Positions 41,515-51,627 of a DNA stretch of 64,000 bases are shown in pieces; within the stretch, counting starts at the first letter, position 1; each line of letters begins with the position of its first letter. The stretch lies in assembly GCA_026398275.1 (NCBI GenBank), contig JAPLTF010000014.1, positions 24,713-88,712 on the forward strand. The letters are read 5' to 3'. This DNA comes from Verrucomicrobiota bacterium (GTDB taxonomy: Bacteria; Verrucomicrobiota; Verrucomicrobiia; Chthoniobacterales; Terrimicrobiaceae). The notes below the pieces were generated by a model. That model had not been told where the DNA came from, ran no database searches, and worked only from the letters and a program-made list of their open reading frames with translations. The position numbers and the translations under genes are program-made.

Positions 41515-42122
41515 CCGGAGTGCTCGAAGCCATCAGGGACGCATTGCCGTCAGCCGGGGTGGAGGTTCTCAAAAACTCCAGCCCGTGCGCACAGGACTCG
41601 CTTGTCGTCAGCGCGAAAGACGCCCGCGCGGTCGCGGAATTTCTGCGCGATTCGCTGGGATACGATTATTGCTCGAACGTGAGCGGCGTGGACTGGCCTG
41701 CGAGGAAGGTCAAGGAGGAGGTCGTTCACAAGGAGTCGGTGGAGGGGGTGGAATCCGAAGTCAAAGAGACCGTCGAGCGCGAGATTCCCGGGTGCCTCGA
41801 GGCTGTCTACCACCTCTACTCCATCGCCAAAAGATCCGGCCTCCTGACCCTGCGCGTGCGGACGGGCGACCGGAAGAACTCCGTGACGATCCCCTCGCTC
41901 ACGCCGGTTTGGAAGAGCGCGGACTTTCAGGAGCGCGAGGCGTTTGACCTCTTTGGGATTCATTTTGAAGGCCACCCCGATCTGCGCCGGCTCCTGATGT
42001 GGGAAGAGTTTGCCGATTTTCCGATGCGCAAGGACTACGTGCCGCCGGACGACTTTGAATACGAGCCGACCCCGCACGATGCGATCCTGGCGAAGGTGAA
42101 AGCACGAACGGAGGCCGCATGA
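41511..42122 (+). CDS. nuoC: NADH-quinone oxidoreductase subunit C
   Basis: A 203-residue 30-kDa-type subunit. Start at ATG 41511 in an ATGA overlap, preceded by GGAGGGATGGGGA; the tracked ORF start at 41211 is shadow. Core motifs: [46 protein letters not shown] and FPMRKDYVP. Between SGVDWP and EAVYHLYS there is a charged insertion (about 25-30 residues, rich in Lys/Glu/Val) not usual for the family. It binds NuoD; the two are coded adjacently with an ATGA overlap. Confidence 0.92.
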
Positions 42123-43342
42123 GCACATCTGCGAACACCGCGACCATCAGCCCAGGGGGCATGGGCGTCCCGCCCGTGTGCGGCGCTGGCTCCGCATCGC
42201 CGGCCAATCTCCAAACAGGCGGGACGCCTGTTCTCCCTGAGAGGAACCAAACGATCGACGTCTCCCTCGGGCCGCAACACCCCTCGACGCACGGCGTTTT
42301 CCGCATGAACGTCACGCTCGACGGCGAGACGGTCACGAAGCTCCAGCCGGTCTTCGGATACCTCCACCGCAACCACGAAAAAATTGCCGAAGGCAACTCG
42401 TGGCTGGCCGCGATGCCCTACACCGACCGCCTCGATTACATCTGCCCGCTCACGAACAACTGGGCGTATGCGCTTGCGGTGGAAAAGCTCGCGGGTATCG
42501 AGGTCGCCGAGCGCGCGGAATACATCCGCGTCATCACCGCCGAGCTCACCCGCCTTCAAAACCACACCGTATTTCTCGGCTTCATCCTCGGCGACATGGG
42601 CGCCTGGGGGTCGGCCCTCATGTATGCGTTCCGCGAGCGCGAAAAAATCCTCGACCTCTTCGAGTCGCTCACCGGCGCCCGCATGATGTGCAACTACATG
42701 CGCTTCGGCGGATGCCGCTGCGACCTGCCGGCCGGATGGATCCAGTCCGCCCGCAAGCTCGTGGACGGATTCCCTGCGTTCCTCGACGAGATGGAGGCGC
42801 TGCTCACCGGCAATGAAATCCTCCTCGCCCGCCTCCAGGGCATCGCCCCCCTGACCGCCGAACGCGCGATCAACGGCGGCCTGTCGGGCCCGTGCCTCCG
42901 CGCCTCGGGCGTGGACTACGACATCCGCAAGGTCGAGAACTACGGTGTCTACAACCGGTTCAAGTTCCGCGTGCCGCGCGGCTCGACCGGAGATTGCTAC
43001 GACCGCTTTATGATCCGCGTCCTCGAGGCCCGCGAGTCGGTGGAGATCCTCAAACAGGCGATCGCCGGAATTCCCGAAGGCCCGATCGTCAACCCGAAAG
43101 CGAAGCAGCGCGGGTTCCGCCCGCCGGCCGGCGAAGCCTACGGGCGCATTGAAGGCCCGAAGGGCGAACTCGGATTCTACCTCATCAGCAACGGCAGCGA
43201 CCGCCCCTACCGGTTCCGCATCCGTCCGCCAAGCCTCATCAATCTCACCCTGCTTGAAGAGCTCAGCATCGGCACCAAAATCGCCGACGTCATGGTCATC
43301 CTCGGCTCCATCGACATCGTTCTCGGGGAGGTGGACCGGTGA
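42119..43342 (+). CDS. nuoD: NADH-quinone oxidoreductase subunit D with repeat-derived N-terminal segment
   Basis: A 407-residue 49-kDa subunit that forms much of the quinone cavity. Core begins at [19 protein letters not shown] with the conserved His, then [37 protein letters not shown] and the C-terminal [25 protein letters not shown]. Residues about 13-41 ([18 protein letters not shown]...GGTPVLPE) come from an in-frame 85-bp hairpin repeat and are absent from normal NuoD. The insertion lies before the conserved domain and probably forms a disordered N-terminal extension. Downstream nuoI starts at a GTG overlapping its stop. Confidence 0.94.
42154..42238. repeat. 85-bp double-hairpin repeat inside nuoD
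   Basis: Left arm GGGCG-TCC-CGCCC and right arm ACAGGCG-GGA-CGCCTGT are hairpins in opposite orientation. The right 24 bases (AAACAGGCGGGACGCCTGTTCTCC) are identical to those of the copy at 45728. The length is a near multiple of three with no stop in the nuoD frame, so the gene stays open. Confidence 0.85.
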
Positions 43343-43950: not shown

Positions 43951-45155
43951 TGGACCTCCTCGAACGCGCACCCATCGAACTCAAAAGCTGGTTCCTGAAC
44001 CTGCTCGGATCGTTTGGCGTTCCTCAAGGGATCCTGTCCGTCCTCTCCGCAGTCATCATCATCGGCACGGTCATCGGAGTTTTTCTCGGTCTCTTCGCGC
44101 TCATGTCGGTGATGGAGCGCAAGATCCTCGCACGGGCGCAGAACCGTTACGGCCCGAACCGCGTCGGCTTTTTCCGCTGGCGGCTGTTCGGCCTCTTCCA
44201 GCCGGTTGCGGACGGCATCAAGATGATCACCAAGGAAGACCTCGTGCCCCGCACCTCGGACCGGGCGGTCCACTTTCTCGCGCCGGTTGTGATGATGATT
44301 CCTGCGCTCCTTGTCCTCGCGATCCTTCCTTACGGGCGCGACATGGTGCCCGCGGAGCTCGATGCCGGGATCCTCTATTTCTTCGCGGTCGGGGCCGGGA
44401 CCGAAGTCGCGGTCTTCATGGCCGGGTGGGCGAGCAATAACAAGTATTCCGTGCTCGGCGCCATGCGCGCGATCGCCCAGATGATCAGCTACGAAATCCC
44501 GCTCGTCATGGCCGCGATCATCGCGGCGATGATCTCGGGCTCGCTGTCGCCCTCGGCCATCGTCGCCGCGCAGGGGGGATTCGCGTGGGGGTTCGTGCCG
44601 CAATGGTTTGTGCTCACACCGTGGGGATTTACCGCCGGCCTCCTGTTTTATATCGCGGCGCTGGCGGAATCAAACCGCAGCCCGTTTGACCTGCCGGAGG
44701 GGGAATCCGAGCTTGTGGCCGGACACCTCACCGAATATTCCGGCTTCAAATACGCGACGTTTTTTATGGCTGAATATATCGGGATGTTCGCGGTCTGCGG
44801 TCTGCTGGTCACCCTCTTCCTCGGCGGATGGCAGGCCCCGCTCCCGTTCCTGACGATCATCCCGTCCTGGTGCTGGTTTTTCGGCAAAGTCTGCTTCGTC
44901 GCGTTCACGATGGTCTGGGTCCGCGCGACCCTGCCGCGGCTGCGGATCGATCACATGCTCGCCTTCGCGTGGAAATTTCTGCTGCCCATGAGCTTCGCCG
45001 CGTTCCTCTCGGCCGCCTGCTGGCACTATGCCGGGCGCGGCCCCTTGGCCTGGCTGCTCTCGCTCGCCATCGTCGGGATCCCCTACCTGATCCTCGGCAC
45101 CGCGTTCACCAACCGCTTCGCCATCTCGCGGCGGACCTACCAATTTTCCGAATGA
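43950..45155 (+). CDS. nuoH: NADH-quinone oxidoreductase subunit H
   Basis: A 401-residue membrane subunit that links the quinone site to the proton-pumping arm. MERKILARAQNRYGPNRVG and AESNRSPFDLPEGESELVAG are the family signatures, and eight or nine helices are visible. An extended loop (SPSAIVAAQGGFAWGF) sits between two helices. ATG 43950 overlaps the nuoI stop by one base (TGATG). Confidence 0.95.
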   Translation: MDLLERAPIELKSWFLNLLGSFGVPQGILSVLSAVIIIGTVIGVFLGLFALMSVMERKILARAQNRYGPNRVGFFRWRLFGLFQPVADGIKMITKEDLVPRTSDRAVHFLAPVVMMIPALLVLAILPYGRDMVPAELDAGILYFFAVGAGTEVAVFMAGWASNNKYSVLGAMRAIAQMISYEIPLVMAAIIAAMISGSLSPSAIVAAQGGFAWGFVPQWFVLTPWGFTAGLLFYIAALAESNRSPFDLPEGESELVAGHLTEYSGFKYATFFMAEYIGMFAVCGLLVTLFLGGWQAPLPFLTIIPSWCWFFGKVCFVAFTMVWVRATLPRLRIDHMLAFAWKFLLPMSFAAFLSAACWHYAGRGPLAWLLSLAIVGIPYLILGTAFTNRFAISRRTYQFSE

Positions 45156-45700
45156 CCTGCGAATTTCTGAAAGCCTGCTCCGCCGATCCGATGAAGTTCC
45201 TCGGGGAATGGTTCGTTCTGCTTCCGGCGCTGGTCCTTCTTATGGCCGCCGGCGCAGCGGTCGTCATGCGGAACCTGATCCACGCCGCGCTCTGCCTCAC
45301 GCTCAGCTTCATCGCGCTCGGCATCGTCTTCATCGCGCTCGGCGCGGAATTCGTCGGCTTCGTCCAGCTCCTCGTCTATGTCGGAGCCGTGGCCATGGTC
45401 ATCGTCTTCGCCATCCTCCTCACCAAACCGGAACGCCTCACAAAATCCGTCTCGGCGTTCTCCGGCCTCGGCCCCGCAGGCGGTGCGGCCGTGGGATTTG
45501 TGGTCCTCGCCGCCCTCCTGGGATTCATCTTTACGAGCCCGCTGGCAAAAAAGCCGCTGCCGACCCCGGCCTCCGCTCCAGTGGCAGACATCGGCCAGGC
45601 GCTCATGGGCGACTACGTCGTTGCGCTCATCGCGATCGGCGTCCTGCTCACCGCCGCACTCGTCGGGGCCGCCGTCATCGCCATGGAGGACAAACCATGA
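45152..45700 (+). CDS. nuoJ: NADH-quinone oxidoreductase subunit J
   Basis: A 182-residue membrane subunit with five helices. Start at ATG 45152 (ATGA overlap with nuoH); the tracked longer ORF is shadow. VVMRNLIHAALCLTLSFIALGIVFIALGAEFVGFVQLLVYVGAVAMVIVF contains the conserved pi-bulge helix region. The gene ends in ATGA, whose ATG begins a repeat-borne ORF instead of nuoK directly. Confidence 0.93.
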   Translation: MTCEFLKACSADPMKFLGEWFVLLPALVLLMAAGAAVVMRNLIHAALCLTLSFIALGIVFIALGAEFVGFVQLLVYVGAVAMVIVFAILLTKPERLTKSVSAFSGLGPAGGAAVGFVVLAALLGFIFTSPLAKKPLPTPASAPVADIGQALMGDYVVALIAIGVLLTAALVGAAVIAMEDKP

Positions 45701-45840
45701 TGAGAGTGGATTGCATTCGATCTTCTCAGGGGGCACGGGCGTCCCGCCCGTGTGCAGCACTGTCTTCGCTGAGAACCTCAGTCCCAAAACAGGCGGGACG
45801 CCTGTTCTCCTTTAACTCCAACGGCGCACCCCTCCCATGA
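45697..45840 (+). CDS. Bridge ORF between nuoJ and nuoK (repeat-derived, 47 codons)
   Basis: An ORF that begins at the ATG overlapping the nuoJ stop (ATGA) and ends at the TGA overlapping the nuoK start (ATGA). Its middle is the 85-bp hairpin repeat, reading GARASRPC and KQAGRLFSF. No homology to a known protein is seen, and the product is probably not functional. The interest is that ribosomes could pass from J to K through it by stop-start coupling. Two more junctions in this operon have the same arrangement. Confidence 0.35.
   Translation: MMRVDCIRSSQGARASRPCAALSSLRTSVPKQAGRLFSFNSNGAPLP
45728..45812. repeat. 85-bp double-hairpin repeat between nuoJ and nuoK
   Basis: Left arm CACGGGCG-TCC-CGCCCGTG, right arm ACAGGCG-GGA-CGCCTGT, same family as 42154 and 48084. 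Left arms of this copy and the nuoD copy differ at one base over about 28; right arms are identical over 24. Confidence 0.85.
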
Positions 45841-46145
45841 CGCTCCAGATCCTTCTCGCCATCTCCGCGATCCTCTTCGCCTTCGGCCTCGCCGCCACGC
45901 TCTCGCGCTCAAATGCAATCATGATCCTCATCGGGATCGAGCTCATGCTCGGCGCGGCGAACCTGAATTTTGTCGCCTTCTGGAGATTTTCTGAAAACCC
46001 GGCCGCCATGACCGGCGTCCTGTTCGCGATCTTCTCGATCGCCGTCGCCGCCGCCGAAGCCGCCGTCGGCCTCGCCATCATCATCCTCGTCCACCGCAGG
46101 ATCAAAAGCGTCGAGGCGGATGACGCGTCGAATTTGAAAGGATGA
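45837..46145 (+). CDS. nuoK: NADH-quinone oxidoreductase subunit K
   Basis: A 102-residue, three-helix membrane subunit. The conserved helix-2 motif GIELMLGAANLNFVAF contains the key Glu of the proton path, and a second Glu occurs in AAAEAAVGLAIIILV. Length is normal. Both ends are in ATGA overlaps with bridge ORFs. Confidence 0.94.
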   Translation: MTLQILLAISAILFAFGLAATLSRSNAIMILIGIELMLGAANLNFVAFWRFSENPAAMTGVLFAIFSIAVAAAEAAVGLAIIILVHRRIKSVEADDASNLKG

Positions 46146-46456
46146 AGACAAAGCGGAAAGCGGAAAGCGGAAAGCGGAAATGGGGCGCAAGCGCCCGCGT
46201 GCCGCTTCGCGGAGTTGGACGGACACGGCGGCACAGCGCCGTGGCTACAACGCTGCCGTCCTTGTCACGCTGTGCGTTTGATGCCCCGCTGGCGTTCCGG
46301 ATGGCTGCCCGCCTACACACTCGAATCTCCCTTATTGACACGAGGCGCTGGCGCGCTGGTGTTGTAGCCGCCCCGCTGTGCCGGGGCGTGATCGCGGCTT
46401 TGCCGCCACTTCTTTCCTCTTTCCGGCTTCCGATTTCCCATTTCCGCCTTCCATGA
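46142..46456 (+). CDS. Bridge ORF between nuoK and nuoL (repeat-derived, 104 codons)
   Basis: Starts at the ATG overlapping the nuoK stop and ends at the TGA overlapping the nuoL start. It has no stop through 104 codons of repeat DNA. The sequence is Arg/Ser-rich (MKTKRKAESGKRKWG..., ending SSFRLPISHFRLP) and matches no family. As in the other two bridges, the spacing from one ATG to the next is 2 modulo 3, which is what coupling requires. Protein function is doubtful. Confidence 0.35.
   Translation: MKTKRKAESGKRKWGASARVPLRGVGRTRRHSAVATTLPSLSRCAFDAPLAFRMAARLHTRISLIDTRRWRAGVVAAPLCRGVIAALPPLLSSFRLPISHFRLP
46150..46449. repeat. Composite repeat between nuoK and nuoL
   Basis: Fills a 307-base gap without a conserved gene. 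The left end is a tandem heptamer (AAAGCGG four times, then AAATGGGG). The right end, read on the minus strand, has GGCGGAAATGGGAAA, so the ends are inverted repeats. Inside lie two hairpins with inverted flanks: CACGGCG-GCACAG-CGCCGTG followed by GCTACAAC, and GTTGTAGC followed by CGCCCCG-CTGTGC-CGGGGCG. The loops are reverse complements. This is the CTACA family seen at 11721 and 31694. Confidence 0.7.
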
Positions 46457-48564
46457 TTTCCCTGATCCCCATCCTCCCGCTGCTTGCCGCCGGTGTGACC
46501 GCCTTGATGAAGCGCGGCCAGCGCGCGCCGGCCGCGACTTTGGTGATCGCCGCGCAGGCGGCTTCGACGGTTCTCAGCCTGCTGGCATTTCTCCAGACGC
46601 TTGGGGCGGAAGCTGTGCATGGTGATGTGGCGCGGACGTATTTCAATTTCCCCTGGCTGAGCGTCGGGGGCGAAACCCTGAGCCTCGGGCTGCTCCTTGA
46701 TCCGCTCGGCGCGGGCATGGTGCTGATGGTCTCGTTCGTCTCGCTGCTGATCTTCATCTACAGCGTCGGCTACATGAAGGAGGACGCGAACTTCACGCGG
46801 TTCTTCTGCTTCCTGTCGCTGTTTTCCGCCGCGATGCTCGGAGTCGTCCTCTCGAACAGCCTGCTGCTCACGTTCATCTGCTGGGAGCTCGTCGGCCTGG
46901 CGTCGTATCTCCTCATCGGATTCTGGTTCCACAAGCCCGAGGCGGCTGCGGCCGCGAAGAAGGCGTTCCTCACGACCCGCATCGGCGACATGGGTTTCCT
47001 GCTCGGAATGCTCTGGCTCTACTCCGCTTCCGGAACGCTGCTCTTCTACGATCATGGGAACGGCTGCCTCGAACAGGCCGCGCTCACGGCGATAGCCACG
47101 AAGACCGCCTGCATCGGACTCGCCGTCTCCAACTGCATCGCCCTCCTCATCTTTTGCGGGGCCGCAGGAAAATCCGGCCAGTTCCCGCTCCACGTCTGGC
47201 TGCCGGATGCCATGGAGGGTCCGACTCCGGTCAGCGCGCTCATCCACGCGGCCACGATGGTGGCGGCGGGCGTCTATCTCGTCGCCCGCATGTTCCCGAT
47301 TTTCTCCGCGACCGGCAATGTCTCGGTCGCGCTCACAACCGTGGCCTGGGTCGGCGCCTTCACCGCCCTCTTCGCCGCGCTGATCGCCGTCGCGCAGACC
47401 GACATCAAGCGGATCCTCGCGTATTCGACCGTCTCCCAGCTCGGCTTCATGATGCTCGCGCTCGGGGTCGGCAGCGTCACGGCGGCCATGGTCCACCTGA
47501 TCGCCCACGCGTTTTTCAAGGCGCTCCTCTTCCTCGGCGCGGGCTCGGTCATCCACGGTGTCCACGAGGAGCAGGACATCCGGAACATGGGCGGCCTGCG
47601 GAAATACATGCCGGTCACATTCATCACCTACGCCATCGGCATGATGGCCCTCTGCGGCGTCCCGTTCTTTTTCTCGGGCTTCTGGAGCAAGGATGAAATC
47701 CTTCACGTCGCCCACCAGTGGCCGGTCTCGCAACTGCCATTCTTCATGGCCGCCGCCGCCGCATTCCTCACCGCGTTCTACATGACCCGCCAGATGTGCT
47801 ACGTGTTTGGCGGATCGTATCGCGGCCACGCCCACCCGCACGAAAGCCCGGCGGTGATGACCATCCCGCTCGGGATCCTCGCCGGTGCCGCCGTCCTCAT
47901 GTCCATCCCCGCAACTCCCGCATGGCCGTGGTTCCATGGGTATCATACGGGCGAAGACATCGCGCTGGATTTCGCCCGCCTGATCGAACACGATTTCCTC
48001 ACCATTGCCGGGCTCTCGATCGTGATCGTGACCGCCGGAATCGGCATCGGCTGCCTCCTCTACCGGCGCATCGGAATCGAAAGCCAGGGGGAACGGGCGT
48101 CCCGCCCGTTTGGGCAGGAGACATCGCAAGCGCTGAGCCATACACGGGCGGGACGCCCGTGCCCCCTGGATCATTCCAATGCTGCACCGTCTGTAGATCC
48201 GCTCCAAAAACTTTTGCCGGGGCTGTATTCCGCGCTTGCGAACCGGCTCTATGTGGACGAACTCTACAACGCGACCGTCGTCCGCGCGCTCGGGCTGCTC
48301 GGCTGCCTCGCCGCATGGATCGACCGCTGGATCTTCTCCGGCATCGTCCGACTGGTCGGCGCGCTTTCGCTCCTCGCCTCCGCGCTCAGCGACCTCTTCG
48401 ACCGGTTCGGGATCAACCTCGGATTCGACAGCCTCTGTGGCGGACTCCGCAACGGGGGGCGGGTGTTCTCCTCGTGGGAAAGCGGGCGCGTGCAGGGCTA
48501 CCTGCGGTTCCTGAGCGTCGGGGCCGTTCTCCTTCTTATCATTCTCGGATGGCTGCTCACATGA
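46453..48564 (+). CDS. nuoL: NADH-quinone oxidoreductase subunit L, elongated
   Basis: A 703-residue antiporter-like subunit; E. coli NuoL is about 613. Start at ATG 46453 (MISLIPILPLL). Core motifs: FICWELVGLASYLLIGFW, KKAFLTTRIGDMGFLLG, KSGQFPLHVWLPDAMEGPTPVSALIHAATMVAAG and KRILAYSTVSQLG. Two C-terminal oddities. A 29-residue segment (about 545-573, GERASRPF...) is encoded by an in-frame hairpin repeat. The following amphipathic lateral helix (from RLYVDELYNA to VQGYLR, about 88 residues) is roughly 25-30 residues longer than usual. The longer helix fits a complex with an extra antiporter subunit. Confidence 0.93.
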   Translation: MISLIPILPLLAAGVTALMKRGQRAPAATLVIAAQAASTVLSLLAFLQTLGAEAVHGDVARTYFNFPWLSVGGETLSLGLLLDPLGAGMVLMVSFVSLLIFIYSVGYMKEDANFTRFFCFLSLFSAAMLGVVLSNSLLLTFICWELVGLASYLLIGFWFHKPEAAAAAKKAFLTTRIGDMGFLLGMLWLYSASGTLLFYDHGNGCLEQAALTAIATKTACIGLAVSNCIALLIFCGAAGKSGQFPLHVWLPDAMEGPTPVSALIHAATMVAAGVYLVARMFPIFSATGNVSVALTTVAWVGAFTALFAALIAVAQTDIKRILAYSTVSQLGFMMLALGVGSVTAAMVHLIAHAFFKALLFLGAGSVIHGVHEEQDIRNMGGLRKYMPVTFITYAIGMMALCGVPFFFSGFWSKDEILHVAHQWPVSQLPFFMAAAAAFLTAFYMTRQMCYVFGGSYRGHAHPHESPAVMTIPLGILAGAAVLMSIPATPAWPWFHGYHTGEDIALDFARLIEHDFLTIAGLSIVIVTAGIGIGCLLYRRIGIESQGERASRPFGQETSQALSHTRAGRPCPLDHSNAAPSVDPLQKLLPGLYSALANRLYVDELYNATVVRALGLLGCLAAWIDRWIFSGIVRLVGALSLLASALSDLFDRFGINLGFDSLCGGLRNGGRVFSSWESGRVQGYLRFLSVGAVLLLIILGWLLT
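48084..48169. repeat. 86-bp double-hairpin repeat inside nuoL
   Basis: The clearest copy of the family: ends CCAGGGGG and CCCCCTGG are perfect inverted repeats, with inner hairpins ACGGGCG-TCC-CGCCCGT and ACGGGCG-GGA-CGCCCGT. It reads through in the nuoL frame between the last core helix before the lateral arm and the arm itself. Confidence 0.9.
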
Positions 48565-48668
48565 CTCTCCTCACGCTGATTCCACGGGAGCGCGGGCGTC
48601 CCGCCCGCATCGTAAAACATAGCGGGCAAGATGCCCGCGCTCCTTTACAAACCCGGAGCCGACAATGA
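48561..48668 (+). CDS. Bridge ORF between nuoL and nuoM1 (35 codons)
   Basis: Begins at the ATG overlapping the nuoL stop (ATGA) and ends with the TGA overlapping the nuoM1 ATG. Its first eight residues MTLLTLIP are identical to the NuoM1 N-terminus because the first 24 bases of nuoM1 are duplicated here. The rest (RERGRPARIVKHS...) is repeat-derived. It represents the original nuoM1 start separated from its gene by an insertion. It is translatable but unlikely to be functional. Confidence 0.4.
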   Translation: MTLLTLIPRERGRPARIVKHSGQDARAPLQTRSRQ

Positions 48669-48688
48669 CTCTCCTCACGCTGATTCCA
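48561..48688. repeat. 24-bp direct repeat flanking a short hairpin element
   Basis: ATGACTCTCCTCACGCTGAT plus TCCA occurs exactly at 48561-48584 and 48665-48688. Between them 48586-48644 is a 59-bp hairpin pair (GCGGGCG-TCC-CGCCCGC and GCGGGCA-AGA-TGCCCGC, ends GGGAGCGC and GCGCTCCT), then a 20-base tail carrying GGAG six bases before the second ATG. The copy is consistent with a long target-site duplication, or with slippage during insertion. Confidence 0.85.
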
Positions 48689-50131
48689 TTTGTCGGAGCC
48701 CTACTGGTCGCCCTGCTTCCGTCGCACCGCGCGGCGCGCATGTCCGGCCTCGTGTTGATGGCTGGCGTCCTCGGCCTTACCATCTCGCTGGCGCTCGGCT
48801 ACGACCGGGCTGCCGGCGGAATCCAGTTCATCGAGCGCCACGCTTGGATCCCCTCGCTTGGCGTGGACTACTTCGTCGGCACCGATGGCATGAGCCTGAT
48901 GCTGCTTCTGCTGACGGCGATCATCACGCCGTTCGCCCTGCTGTCCGCCGGGCCCGGAATTTCCAGGCTGCAAGTCGTGCTGATCCTGCTCCTCGAGACG
49001 GCGCTCATTGGAACATTCACCGCGCTCAATTTCATCCACTGGTTCGTGTTTTACGAATTGAGCCTCGTCCCCGCTTTCCTGCTCATCCGCTCGGCGGGAA
49101 CGAAGGAGTCGACGACCGCAGCCCTCCGGTTCTTTATCTACACCCTGCTCGGCGGGCTCGCGATGCTCATCGGGTTCCTGGCCATCCAAATTGCCGCCGG
49201 GACATTTGATCTCATCAAGCTTGGAGAAATGGGCGCGTCGCTCGACAGCAAGCTGGCCGCAGCATTCGGATGGCCGTCGGCGGGCCTCCTCGTCTTCTGC
49301 TGCATTTTCTTGGGCCTGGCGGTGAAAGTGCCCGTCGTGCCTTTCCACACCTGGCTGCCGGACGCCTACTCGGAGGCTCCGTCTCCGGTCACCATGCTCC
49401 TCACCGGCCTGATGTCGAAGATGGGCGTCTACGGATTTCTGCGGCTGCTCGTGCCGCTGTTTCCGCAACGCATGCAGGAACTCGCCGCTCCGCTTCTCTG
49501 GCTGGCGCTCGCCACGATCATCTTCTCCGCCTTTGCCGCGCTCGCGCAGACCGACCTCAAGCGGATCTTCGCGTATTCGTCGGTCAACCACCTCGGCTAT
49601 TGCCTGCTTGGGATCTTTGCCGTCGCGGCTGTCCCGATGGGCGCTCCCGCCGCCCGCGCGGCGGCAACCAACGGCGTCCTGCTCCAGATTTTCAACCACG
49701 GCCTCACCGCCGCCGCCCTCTTCTGCTTCGTCGGATTCCTCGAACGCCGCTCGGGCGGGCTGCGCGGGATGGCCGGCTTCGGCGGACTGCGCGCGGCAGC
49801 TCCCGTGTTCGCCGGGCTCATGGGCATCGCGATCTTCTCCTCGCTCGGCCTCCCTGGACTGAACGGGTTCGTCGGGGAGTTTCTGATTTTCAGCGGGACC
49901 TTCAAACTCGTCTGGTGGTCGGCGGCGCTCGCCGCCATCGGCCTCTTCGTCACCGCGGTCTTCCTGCTGAACATCATCCAGAAAGTCTTCACCGGCCCGC
50001 TGCCGGAGCGGTGGTCAAAATTCCCCGACCTCACCTCCGCTGAAATCCTCACCGTCGCGCCCGCGATCGCCCTGATGTTTGTCCTCGGCATCTACCCGCA
50101 GGTGCTCATCGTCCTTTTCAATAAGCCATGA
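48665..50131 (+). CDS. nuoM: NADH-quinone oxidoreductase subunit M, first copy
   Basis: A 488-residue antiporter-like subunit. WFVFYELSLVPAFLLI contains the conserved Glu of helix 5; KVPVVPFHTWLPDAYSEAPSPVTMLLTGLMSKMGVYG and KRIFAYSSVNHLGYCLLG are NuoM signatures. Translation starts at ATG 48665 with GGAG six bases before. The gene is followed by a second NuoM-type gene in an ATGA overlap. Confidence 0.94.
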   Translation: MTLLTLIPFVGALLVALLPSHRAARMSGLVLMAGVLGLTISLALGYDRAAGGIQFIERHAWIPSLGVDYFVGTDGMSLMLLLLTAIITPFALLSAGPGISRLQVVLILLLETALIGTFTALNFIHWFVFYELSLVPAFLLIRSAGTKESTTAALRFFIYTLLGGLAMLIGFLAIQIAAGTFDLIKLGEMGASLDSKLAAAFGWPSAGLLVFCCIFLGLAVKVPVVPFHTWLPDAYSEAPSPVTMLLTGLMSKMGVYGFLRLLVPLFPQRMQELAAPLLWLALATIIFSAFAALAQTDLKRIFAYSSVNHLGYCLLGIFAVAAVPMGAPAARAAATNGVLLQIFNHGLTAAALFCFVGFLERRSGGLRGMAGFGGLRAAAPVFAGLMGIAIFSSLGLPGLNGFVGEFLIFSGTFKLVWWSAALAAIGLFVTAVFLLNIIQKVFTGPLPERWSKFPDLTSAEILTVAPAIALMFVLGIYPQVLIVLFNKP

Positions 50132-51627
50132 TCCTCACCGCGACATTCCTTTCCGCCTTCGCAGGTGCCGCTCTCATCCTCCTGCTTCCGGAGCGCCTCG
50201 CGCAACTCGCCAAGTGGATCGCCCTCCTCGCCGCGCTCGTCGGACTGGCTTTTGCAAAGACCGCATTCCTGGGTTACGACAACTCGCCCGCCGCACCGCA
50301 TTTCCAATTTCTCACGAAAATCCCGTGGGTCCCCCGGCTCGGCATCTCGTTCTCGACCGGGGCCGATGGGATCAGCGTGGTCATGCTTCTGCTCACCGGA
50401 ATCATCGCCGTGGCGGGCATCCTATTTTCATGGAATGTCACTCACCGGCCGCGTGCGTTCTTCGCGTTTTATCTCATCATCATCGGCGGGGTTTACGGCG
50501 TCTTCCAGAGCTTCGATCTGTTCCTGCTCTTTGTCTTCTACGAGATCGTCATCATCCCGAAATATTTCCTGATCGCGGCGTGGGGGTCCACCAACCGCGA
50601 ATACGGCGCGATGAAGCTGACGATGTATTCCGTCGCCGGCAGCGCGCTGGTTTTGCTTGCGATGATCGCGACCTACGCCGTATCCGGCGCGCATTCGTTC
50701 GATCTCTTCACCCTTGCCGATCCCTCGAAAGCACACTTTTCCCCCGCCTTCCAGGCCTGGACATTTCCCGTGATGTTCACCGGCTTCGCCGTGCTGGCAG
50801 GTCTCTGGCCGCTGCACACATGGGCACCGACCGGTCACGTAGCCGCGCCGACCGCCGTCTCCATGCTTCTCGCCGGGGTCGTGATGAAGCTCGGCTCGTA
50901 TTCCGCGCTCCGCGTGGCCATGACGCTTTTTCCCCAGGGCCTCGACCAGTGGCGGATCGCCATCGCCGGGCTCGCGACCGCAGGCATCGTCTTCGGCGCG
51001 CTCGTCGCCCTCGCGCAGAAGGATCTGAAATTCACCGTCGGCTACTCGAGCATCGCCCACATGGGATTCGTCCTCCTCGGCCTCATGACGCTGAACCTGC
51101 CAGGCCTCGGCGGATCCGTCCTCCAGATGTTCTCCCACGGCATCATCGGCGGGCTGCTCTTCGCTGTCGTCGGGCGCATGATCTACGACCGCACGCACAC
51201 GCGCGACATCGCGGAGCTCGGAAAAATGGACCTTGCCAAGGCGCTCCCGTTTGCCGCCCTCACATTCACCGTCGCATCCGTCGCCTCGATGGGCCTGCCG
51301 GGCTTCAGTGGATTCATCGCCGAGTTCACGATCCTCAAGGGTTCGTGGAATTCCCTGCCCCTGTTCCTCATCCCCGCCGGCATCGGGGTTGTCATCACGG
51401 TGGCGTTCACCCTTCGCGCGCTCCAGCGGACATTCTATCCATCCGGTGGACCCTCCGCGCACGCGCACCCATTCGACCCGATCACGCTTCCGGAAAAGCT
51501 CGGCGCGCTCATGCTCATGGCAGCGACCCTGTTTGTCGGCCTGTTTCCCTCGGCGCTCCTCGATCCCATTCTGCGCAGCTTCCAGAGCCCTTTGATGCAC
51601 CGGCTTATCCAGGAGGCCGGGAAGTAG
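50128..51627 (+). CDS. NADH-quinone oxidoreductase subunit M, second copy
   Basis: A 499-residue antiporter-like subunit, clearly NuoM-type and not NuoN: FVFYEIVIIPKYFLIAAWGSTNREYGAMKL, ATLWPLHTW-like AGLWPLHTWAPTGHVAAPTAVSMLLAGVVMKLGSY, KDLKFTVGYSSIAHMGFVLLG and GFSGFIAEF. It has about 14 helices. It is diverged from the first copy rather than a recent duplicate. It would add one more proton channel to the membrane arm. No nuoN follows; the next gene is convergent fabF. Confidence 0.9.
   Translation: MILTATFLSAFAGAALILLLPERLAQLAKWIALLAALVGLAFAKTAFLGYDNSPAAPHFQFLTKIPWVPRLGISFSTGADGISVVMLLLTGIIAVAGILFSWNVTHRPRAFFAFYLIIIGGVYGVFQSFDLFLLFVFYEIVIIPKYFLIAAWGSTNREYGAMKLTMYSVAGSALVLLAMIATYAVSGAHSFDLFTLADPSKAHFSPAFQAWTFPVMFTGFAVLAGLWPLHTWAPTGHVAAPTAVSMLLAGVVMKLGSYSALRVAMTLFPQGLDQWRIAIAGLATAGIVFGALVALAQKDLKFTVGYSSIAHMGFVLLGLMTLNLPGLGGSVLQMFSHGIIGGLLFAVVGRMIYDRTHTRDIAELGKMDLAKALPFAALTFTVASVASMGLPGFSGFIAEFTILKGSWNSLPLFLIPAGIGVVITVAFTLRALQRTFYPSGGPSAHAHPFDPITLPEKLGALMLMAATLFVGLFPSALLDPILRSFQSPLMHRLIQEAGK

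Follow-up and report, generated by a model that had tools for sequence, protein, structure and literature searches.

Bridge open reading frames span repeat inserts at stop-start overlaps of nuo genes in Verrucomicrobiota

Three interrupted junctions in the nuo operon

The window, the whole 64,000-nt stretch of DNA that was analysed, belongs to a 4.66 Mb assembly (G000) and carries a nuo operon with tightly packed genes. From nuoB to the second nuoM (M2), the junctions B-C, C-D, D-I, H-J, and M1-M2 overlap by 4 nt and the I-H junction by 1 nt, in agreement with the initial annotation, which stated that all nuo junctions other than three overlap directly. A 113-nt gap precedes nuoB, upstream of the operon, and the ORFs upstream of nuoB were rejected as further nuo genes, as they proved not to be nuo. 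At the nuoJ/nuoK, nuoK/nuoL, and nuoL/nuoM1 junctions, the genes are separated by repeat DNA, and an ORF, hereafter called a bridge, runs through each insert. The features are as follows:

42119..42237, plus strand: repeat of the GGGCGTCCCGCCC family in frame at the nuoD N-terminus, arms around 42163-42175 and 42217-42229
45152..45700, plus strand: nuoJ (Pfam Oxidored_q3); its start overlaps the nuoH stop by 4 nt and its stop TGA (45698-45700) lies within the ATGA at 45697-45700
45697..45840, plus strand: bridge 1, nuoJ to nuoK, 47 codons (47 aa), ATGA overlap at both ends
45727..45810, no strand: palindromic repeat pair of the GGGCGTCCCGCCC family at J/K, arms 45730-45751 and 45789-45810
45837..46145, plus strand: nuoK (Pfam Oxidored_q2)
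46142..46456, plus strand: bridge 2, nuoK to nuoL, 104 codons (104 aa)
46146..46452, no strand: composite hairpin insert at K/L, with short tandem repeats (AAAGCGG) as outer arms, the core GGGGCGCAAGCGCCC, and a nested second repeat
46453..48564, plus strand: nuoL (Pfam Proton_antipo_M/N)
48084..48169, no strand: palindromic repeat (GGGCGTCCCGCCC family) in frame inside nuoL; a diverged copy lies there in G001, absent in G002 and G003
48561..48668, plus strand: bridge 3, nuoL to nuoM1, 35 codons (35 aa), starting with the first 8 codons of nuoM
48561..48584, plus strand: upstream copy of a perfect 24-bp direct repeat (ATGACTCTCCTCACGCTGATTCCA, family D6)
48585..48664, no strand: palindromic repeat pair at L/M, arms 48587-48608 and 48622-48643
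48665..48688, plus strand: downstream copy of the perfect 24-bp direct repeat (family D6), which is the 5' end of nuoM1
48665..50131, plus strand: nuoM1 (TIGR01972)

All three bridges are open; each starts inside an ATGA shared with the upstream stop and ends inside an ATGA shared with the downstream start. The ATG-to-ATG distances (D) across the inserts are 140, 311, and 104, each 2 mod 3. Re-derived from the sequence, the coordinates and arithmetic first reported for the bridges proved correct to the base. With 4 nt of overlap at both ends of every bridge, each handover has the short stop-start overlap on which termination-reinitiation operates. None of the three bridge ORFs has a Pfam match.

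The three inserts were initially taken for a single repeat element, which is wrong: the J/K and L/M inserts hold paired GGGCGTCCCGCCC palindromes, a dispersed family with 57 exact matches genome-wide (0 for the reversed control), and the K/L insert is a composite. Their predicted folding energies are -56 (J/K), -149 (K/L), and -49 kcal/mol (L/M), and the palindrome cores contain no stops in any frame. The core of the K/L insert is present about 2-3 times per genome and is almost confined to the nuo junctions of G000-G002; the core shared by D/I and K/L has almost no further genomic copies. No Rfam family matched up to an E of 0.1. The repeat at the nuoD N-terminus is the in-frame result when the element inserts close to an ATGA overlap. 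A clear flanking duplication, of 24 bp, exists only at L/M; elsewhere the excess is weak, and target-site duplication is at best weakly indicated as a general rule.

The comparison with related genomes that the initial annotation had suggested shows direct -4 overlaps in uninserted congeners (G001-G003; Chthoniobacterales, Verrucomicrobiota). G003 has such overlaps at J/K, K/L, and L/M and no hairpin inserts from I/H to M1/M2; in G001 and G002, J/K and L/M are direct and K/L carries a different insert. The G003 nuoL start ATGAAGAC is identical to the first 8 nt of bridge 2, at the upstream end of the G000 K/L insert; therefore, bridge 2 starts at the former nuoL start. Likewise, the first 24 bases of nuoM are perfectly duplicated around the L/M element, and bridge 3 therefore starts at the former nuoM start. 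All three junctions in the window were direct ATGA overlaps prior to insertion.

Frame and openness of inserts in related genomes

The analysis covered about 640 kb of loci. We collected the nuo loci of about 75 Chthoniobacterales genomes and counted the inserts of 38-520 nt behind an ATGA, GTGA, or TTGA stop (n=60). An exact bridge was defined as an ORF that begins in the upstream overlap and whose end overlaps the next start by 4 nt; downstream starts were called by homology, blind to bridging, and the expectation came from dinucleotide-shuffled inserts with a random frame. Exact bridges span 32 of the 60 inserts against 4.9 expected, and 29 of 57 against 4.6 once the window genome is left out. 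The shuffles yield an exact bridge 8% of the time, or 12% for the three window inserts, all of which (3/3) are bridged. With one insert per sequence cluster, which lowers but does not remove relatedness among genomes, 13/21 are exact (1.8 expected, p about 1e-9) and 17/21 are 2 mod 3; without G000, 10/18 are exact (1.5 expected, p about 4e-6) and 14/18 are 2 mod 3 (p about 1e-4). These cluster statistics omit the M1/M2 inserts longer than 150 nt, many of which hold an ORF6N-domain gene or pieces of it. The inserts fall into many unrelated sequence clusters, and the strictly bridged ones are 49 to 340 nt long. The pattern in the window is not chance, and it extends far beyond the window.

The nine genomes fetched last served as a hold-out and gave 2/10 exact bridges against 0.55 expected, with 2 mod 3 in 6/10; cases that carry an AT-rich hairpin family, GTTAAAA...TTTTAAC, fail for the most part. 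This family occupies nuoJ/K (19 inserts), contains stops in all frames, and forms a strict bridge in only 1 of its 12 NTGA cases, although several members are still 2 mod 3. Bridging is favoured but not obligatory, since these inserts are mostly unbridged although nuoK is retained. Outside this family, 47 of 58 inserts are bridged (11.4 expected) if a restart no more than 30 nt from the upstream stop is also accepted. Upstream stops that are not part of an NTGA are often followed within 30 nt by a start from which an exact bridge runs, such as the GTG 3 nt after the nuoK TAG in G124, G126, and G129. Shine-Dalgarno-like motifs precede 4% of the post-insert starts versus 25% of those at direct overlaps.

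The openness is specific to one frame. Of the 35 inserts that are 2 mod 3, counted whether open or not and with the TTAAC family apart, 33 have an open bridge frame, and that frame contains 2 stops in about 1630 codons; read in the +1 and +2 frames, this DNA contains 44 and 41 stops, with 6 and 11 of the inserts open, respectively. Base composition cannot explain a stop depletion restricted to the bridge frame. Between homologous bridges, substitutions at codon positions 1, 2, and 3 amount to 0.24, 0.26, and 0.26; openness and frame are therefore kept while the peptide is free. Alignments show one element with in-frame indels across related species, and the bridge peptides of different genomes are unrelated. 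That paired bridges differ by a net multiple of 3 in 14/14 was set aside, as both members had been chosen beforehand as bridges.

Other Verrucomicrobiota orders show the same excess (15 of 32 independent loci bridged, 2.9 expected); outside the phylum, bridges occur in 1/10 inserts in Acidobacteriota and 0/9 in further phyla (1/19 together). A second operon is also affected, in that a bridge spans thyA-folA in both G000 (106 nt) and G003 (70 nt), the two inserts differing in sequence. According to the initial annotation, random spacing of repeats and frequent stops at other gene junctions of this genome would reduce the pattern to chance. Taken literally, such spacing is found outside nuo: repeats in 16 ordinary G000 gaps behind NTGA stops give 1/16 exact bridges, with D mod 3 = 0/1/2 in 6/3/7. 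However, these gaps are not established as ancestral overlaps, and thyA-folA is bridged. Scans of ATGA gaps in four genomes gave only a modest excess over shuffles; ordinary ATGA gaps are probably for the most part not ancestral overlaps.

Proposed ribosome handover and rival explanations

On the best reading, the loci very probably reflect purifying selection (or survivorship) that favours coupling by termination-reinitiation across the insert. In operons with tight coupling, repeats of many kinds would land on the downstream gene's start codon or directly behind it, so that the insert has the ancestral ATGA overlap at its upstream edge and another start, in most cases ATGA, at its downstream edge. 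Copies would persist if they are of a length (2 mod 3) that brings the ORF begun at the ancestral start into frame with the new ATGA and if this frame has no stop; subsequent stop-creating or frame-shifting mutations would be removed. The terminating ribosome would restart on the bridge, translate through it and melt the hairpin, terminate in the second ATGA, and restart on the next gene, so that ribosomes are probably handed from gene to gene via the bridge. As judged from sequence, the bridges may thus be translated and deliver ribosomes by reinitiation; the benefit may lie in reinitiation itself, in stoichiometry, or in protection from Rho-dependent polarity. In reporter work, about 20 nt between genes nearly abolishes termination-reinitiation, and overlaps are enriched among complex subunits (PMC10666635); because of both, an insert of at least 100 nt would need a relay. 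An unbridged insert should hurt, because termination-reinitiation depends steeply on distance (PMC6728339, PMC10666635).

The initial annotation had left two options, selection that keeps ribosomes flowing or an element that regenerates ATGA at both of its ends. The former is strongly supported by the many unrelated families and lengths, by the 2 mod 3 spacing, and by stops that are gone only from the bridge frame; regeneration may help, the 24-bp duplication at L/M being an example, yet it cannot determine the frame across elements of 49 to 340 nt. A built-in element length is excluded, because the inserts span many unrelated repeat families and lengths.

Another explanation, unlikely but worth keeping in view, holds that the inserts are domesticated intercistronic hairpins that set mRNA processing, stability, or subunit ratios, the bridge merely letting ribosomes pass. 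Hairpins recur at D/I and K/L in G001, G002, and G054, with a different sequence in G054, and the core at these junctions is almost free of other genomic copies; bridged inserts also have the stronger predicted folds (median -50 kcal/mol, against -26 kcal/mol for unbridged ones, a comparison confounded by GC and length). It is conceivable, though doubtful, that in Verrucomicrobiota the same nuo junctions repeatedly took up unrelated hairpin repeats, which were domesticated as translated spacers tuning subunit expression, with bridge and hairpin forming a regulatory module instead of tolerated junk. Against domestication, the presence and position of hairpins differ between congeners, the whole region from I/H to M1/M2 being free of them in G003, and the Rfam comparison revealed no conserved RNA family.

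Insertion mechanics alone, in which elements target and duplicate ATGA and their lengths and stop-free sequence happen to bridge without host selection, is improbable. The perfect L/M duplication contains ATGA, no frame of the palindrome cores has a stop, and copies of the element lie in frame within NuoL and NuoD, all as mechanics would have it; but strictly bridged inserts vary widely in length and belong to many unrelated clusters, about 20 times more stops occur in the other two frames of the same inserts, and flanking duplication is weak except at L/M. That the bridges encode functional small proteins is very improbable: some are 100 codons long, and one family of the order has a real ORF6N-domain gene between nuoM1 and the next gene, sometimes with -4 junctions, but the three window bridges lack Pfam matches, the three codon positions are substituted equally, and the peptides differ between genomes. 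Chance or a start-codon artefact, suggested by three cases chosen by eye and by the scarcity of stops in GC-rich repeats, can practically be discarded given the excess in genomes other than that of the window and starts called by homology, blind to bridging.

Known systems and significance

The initial annotation knew of no described system of this kind; this was mistaken, as ORFs of mycobacterial interspersed repetitive units (MIRUs) coupled at -4 nt had been described. As outlined in the passages of a 2025 review that cite Supply et al. 1997, MIRUs insert at the start codon with their ORF and the gene coupled at -4 nt, and this layout is suggested to allow insertion with little harm (PMC12548453). 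The ORFs of the nuo inserts likewise overlap the neighbouring gene at -4 nt. However, MIRUs form a single family, present at about 40 loci in M. tuberculosis, whereas the nuo inserts are many unrelated palindromes and hairpins of free length, without a single dispersed conserved family (the K/L core has so few copies per genome); they occur in Verrucomicrobiota, not mycobacteria, and several times per operon, and their frame and openness are kept while the sequence drifts. The 1997 work is said to place MIRUs also at DTGA stop-start overlaps in operons.

In integrons, attC may carry a short ORF that relieves the hairpin block by termination-reinitiation, and the peptide of the attI ORF-11 hardly matters (PMC8876359). 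Here too, a short ORF through or beside a hairpin would support the next gene, a likeness of mechanism only, as attC is a recombination site between cassettes and the nuo inserts are repeats between fixed operon genes. The proposed mechanism is that of termination-reinitiation at ATGA overlaps, with complex subunits favoured (PMC6728339, PMC10666635); it has been described for adjacent genes, whereas here a relay ORF passes through an insert. Palindromic structure is shared with REP/CGTC repeats and the palindromic elements of Rickettsia (PMC3733652), some of which lie in frame within coding regions like the NuoL and NuoD insertions; the text of that paper does not mention operons, and its passages on these elements do not mention bridge ORFs. 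The GGGCGTCCCGCCC arms hold CGTC and are likened, by description only, to the GTAG/CGTC REP families, stem-loops with a terminal GTAG or CGTC tag. The nuo bridges work like the ORFs of MIRUs and attC and are not MIRUs, given the lack of a single family and the other phylum. We found no literature description of bridged inserts in Verrucomicrobia. The new part is a convergent, sequence-independent solution, selected on frame and openness and repeated within one operon.

Overlapping genes that receive insertions of free length serve as natural experiments in translational coupling. Across a phylum, a meaningless ORF has kept its frame and stayed open, and this is evidence from evolution that the handover of ribosomes between complex I genes matters in nature; until now, the evidence for handover has been mainly reporters in a few species and overlap statistics. 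A layout known from one mycobacterial repeat is extended to many unrelated repeats, which shows a route for repeats to spread inside operons. In annotation, such ORFs of 35-100 aa are probably relays, not proteins.

Palindrome pairs within NuoD and NuoL

Two Nuo proteins contain in-frame insertions of the GGGCGTCCCGCCC palindrome pair:
42150-42237, palindrome pair at the N-terminus of NuoD, in-frame insertion
48084-48169, palindrome pair in NuoL, in-frame insertion
This mode of insertion within proteins is similar to that of the Rickettsia palindromic elements, and a diverged counterpart of the NuoL copy is also present in the congener G001. At four loci of the window's genome, G000 (L053, L057, L063, and L068), the pair is enclosed by a larger element, AATGCTGTTCACTT...AAGTGAACAGCATT, with apparent flanking direct duplications of roughly 9-11 bp near CTAG, which makes this family a probable MITE-like mobile element.

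Hairpins at nuo junctions

The nuoD/nuoI hairpin resembles the nuoK/nuoL hairpin of the same genome in the congeners G001 and G002 (L039 and L040) and in the related genome G054 (L042), but the sequences are unrelated from one genus to the other (G001/G002 versus G054), which suggests that conversion, or else repeated recruitment, has acted at this pair of junctions. At nuoJ/nuoK, AT-rich GTTAAAA...TTTTAAC hairpins without bridge ORFs are found in G121, G129, G163, G164, G180, and other genomes, forming the largest insert sequence cluster. The distinct lengths 97, 100, 103, 109, 121, and 145 among them all give the start-to-start spacing of 2 modulo 3 that suits a bridge frame, and stops break this frame in nearly all of these inserts.

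The nuoM region

Two nuoM-type genes are consecutive in the window:
48665-51627, two nuoM-type genes, TIGR01972 being the best match for both
In other genomes of the order (L119, L126, L162, and numerous family f8 loci), the nuo operon holds a real ORF6N-domain gene (PF10543, ~190 aa) between nuoM1 and the next gene. The gene has -4 overlaps at both ends in some loci, and fragments of it persist in some genomes.
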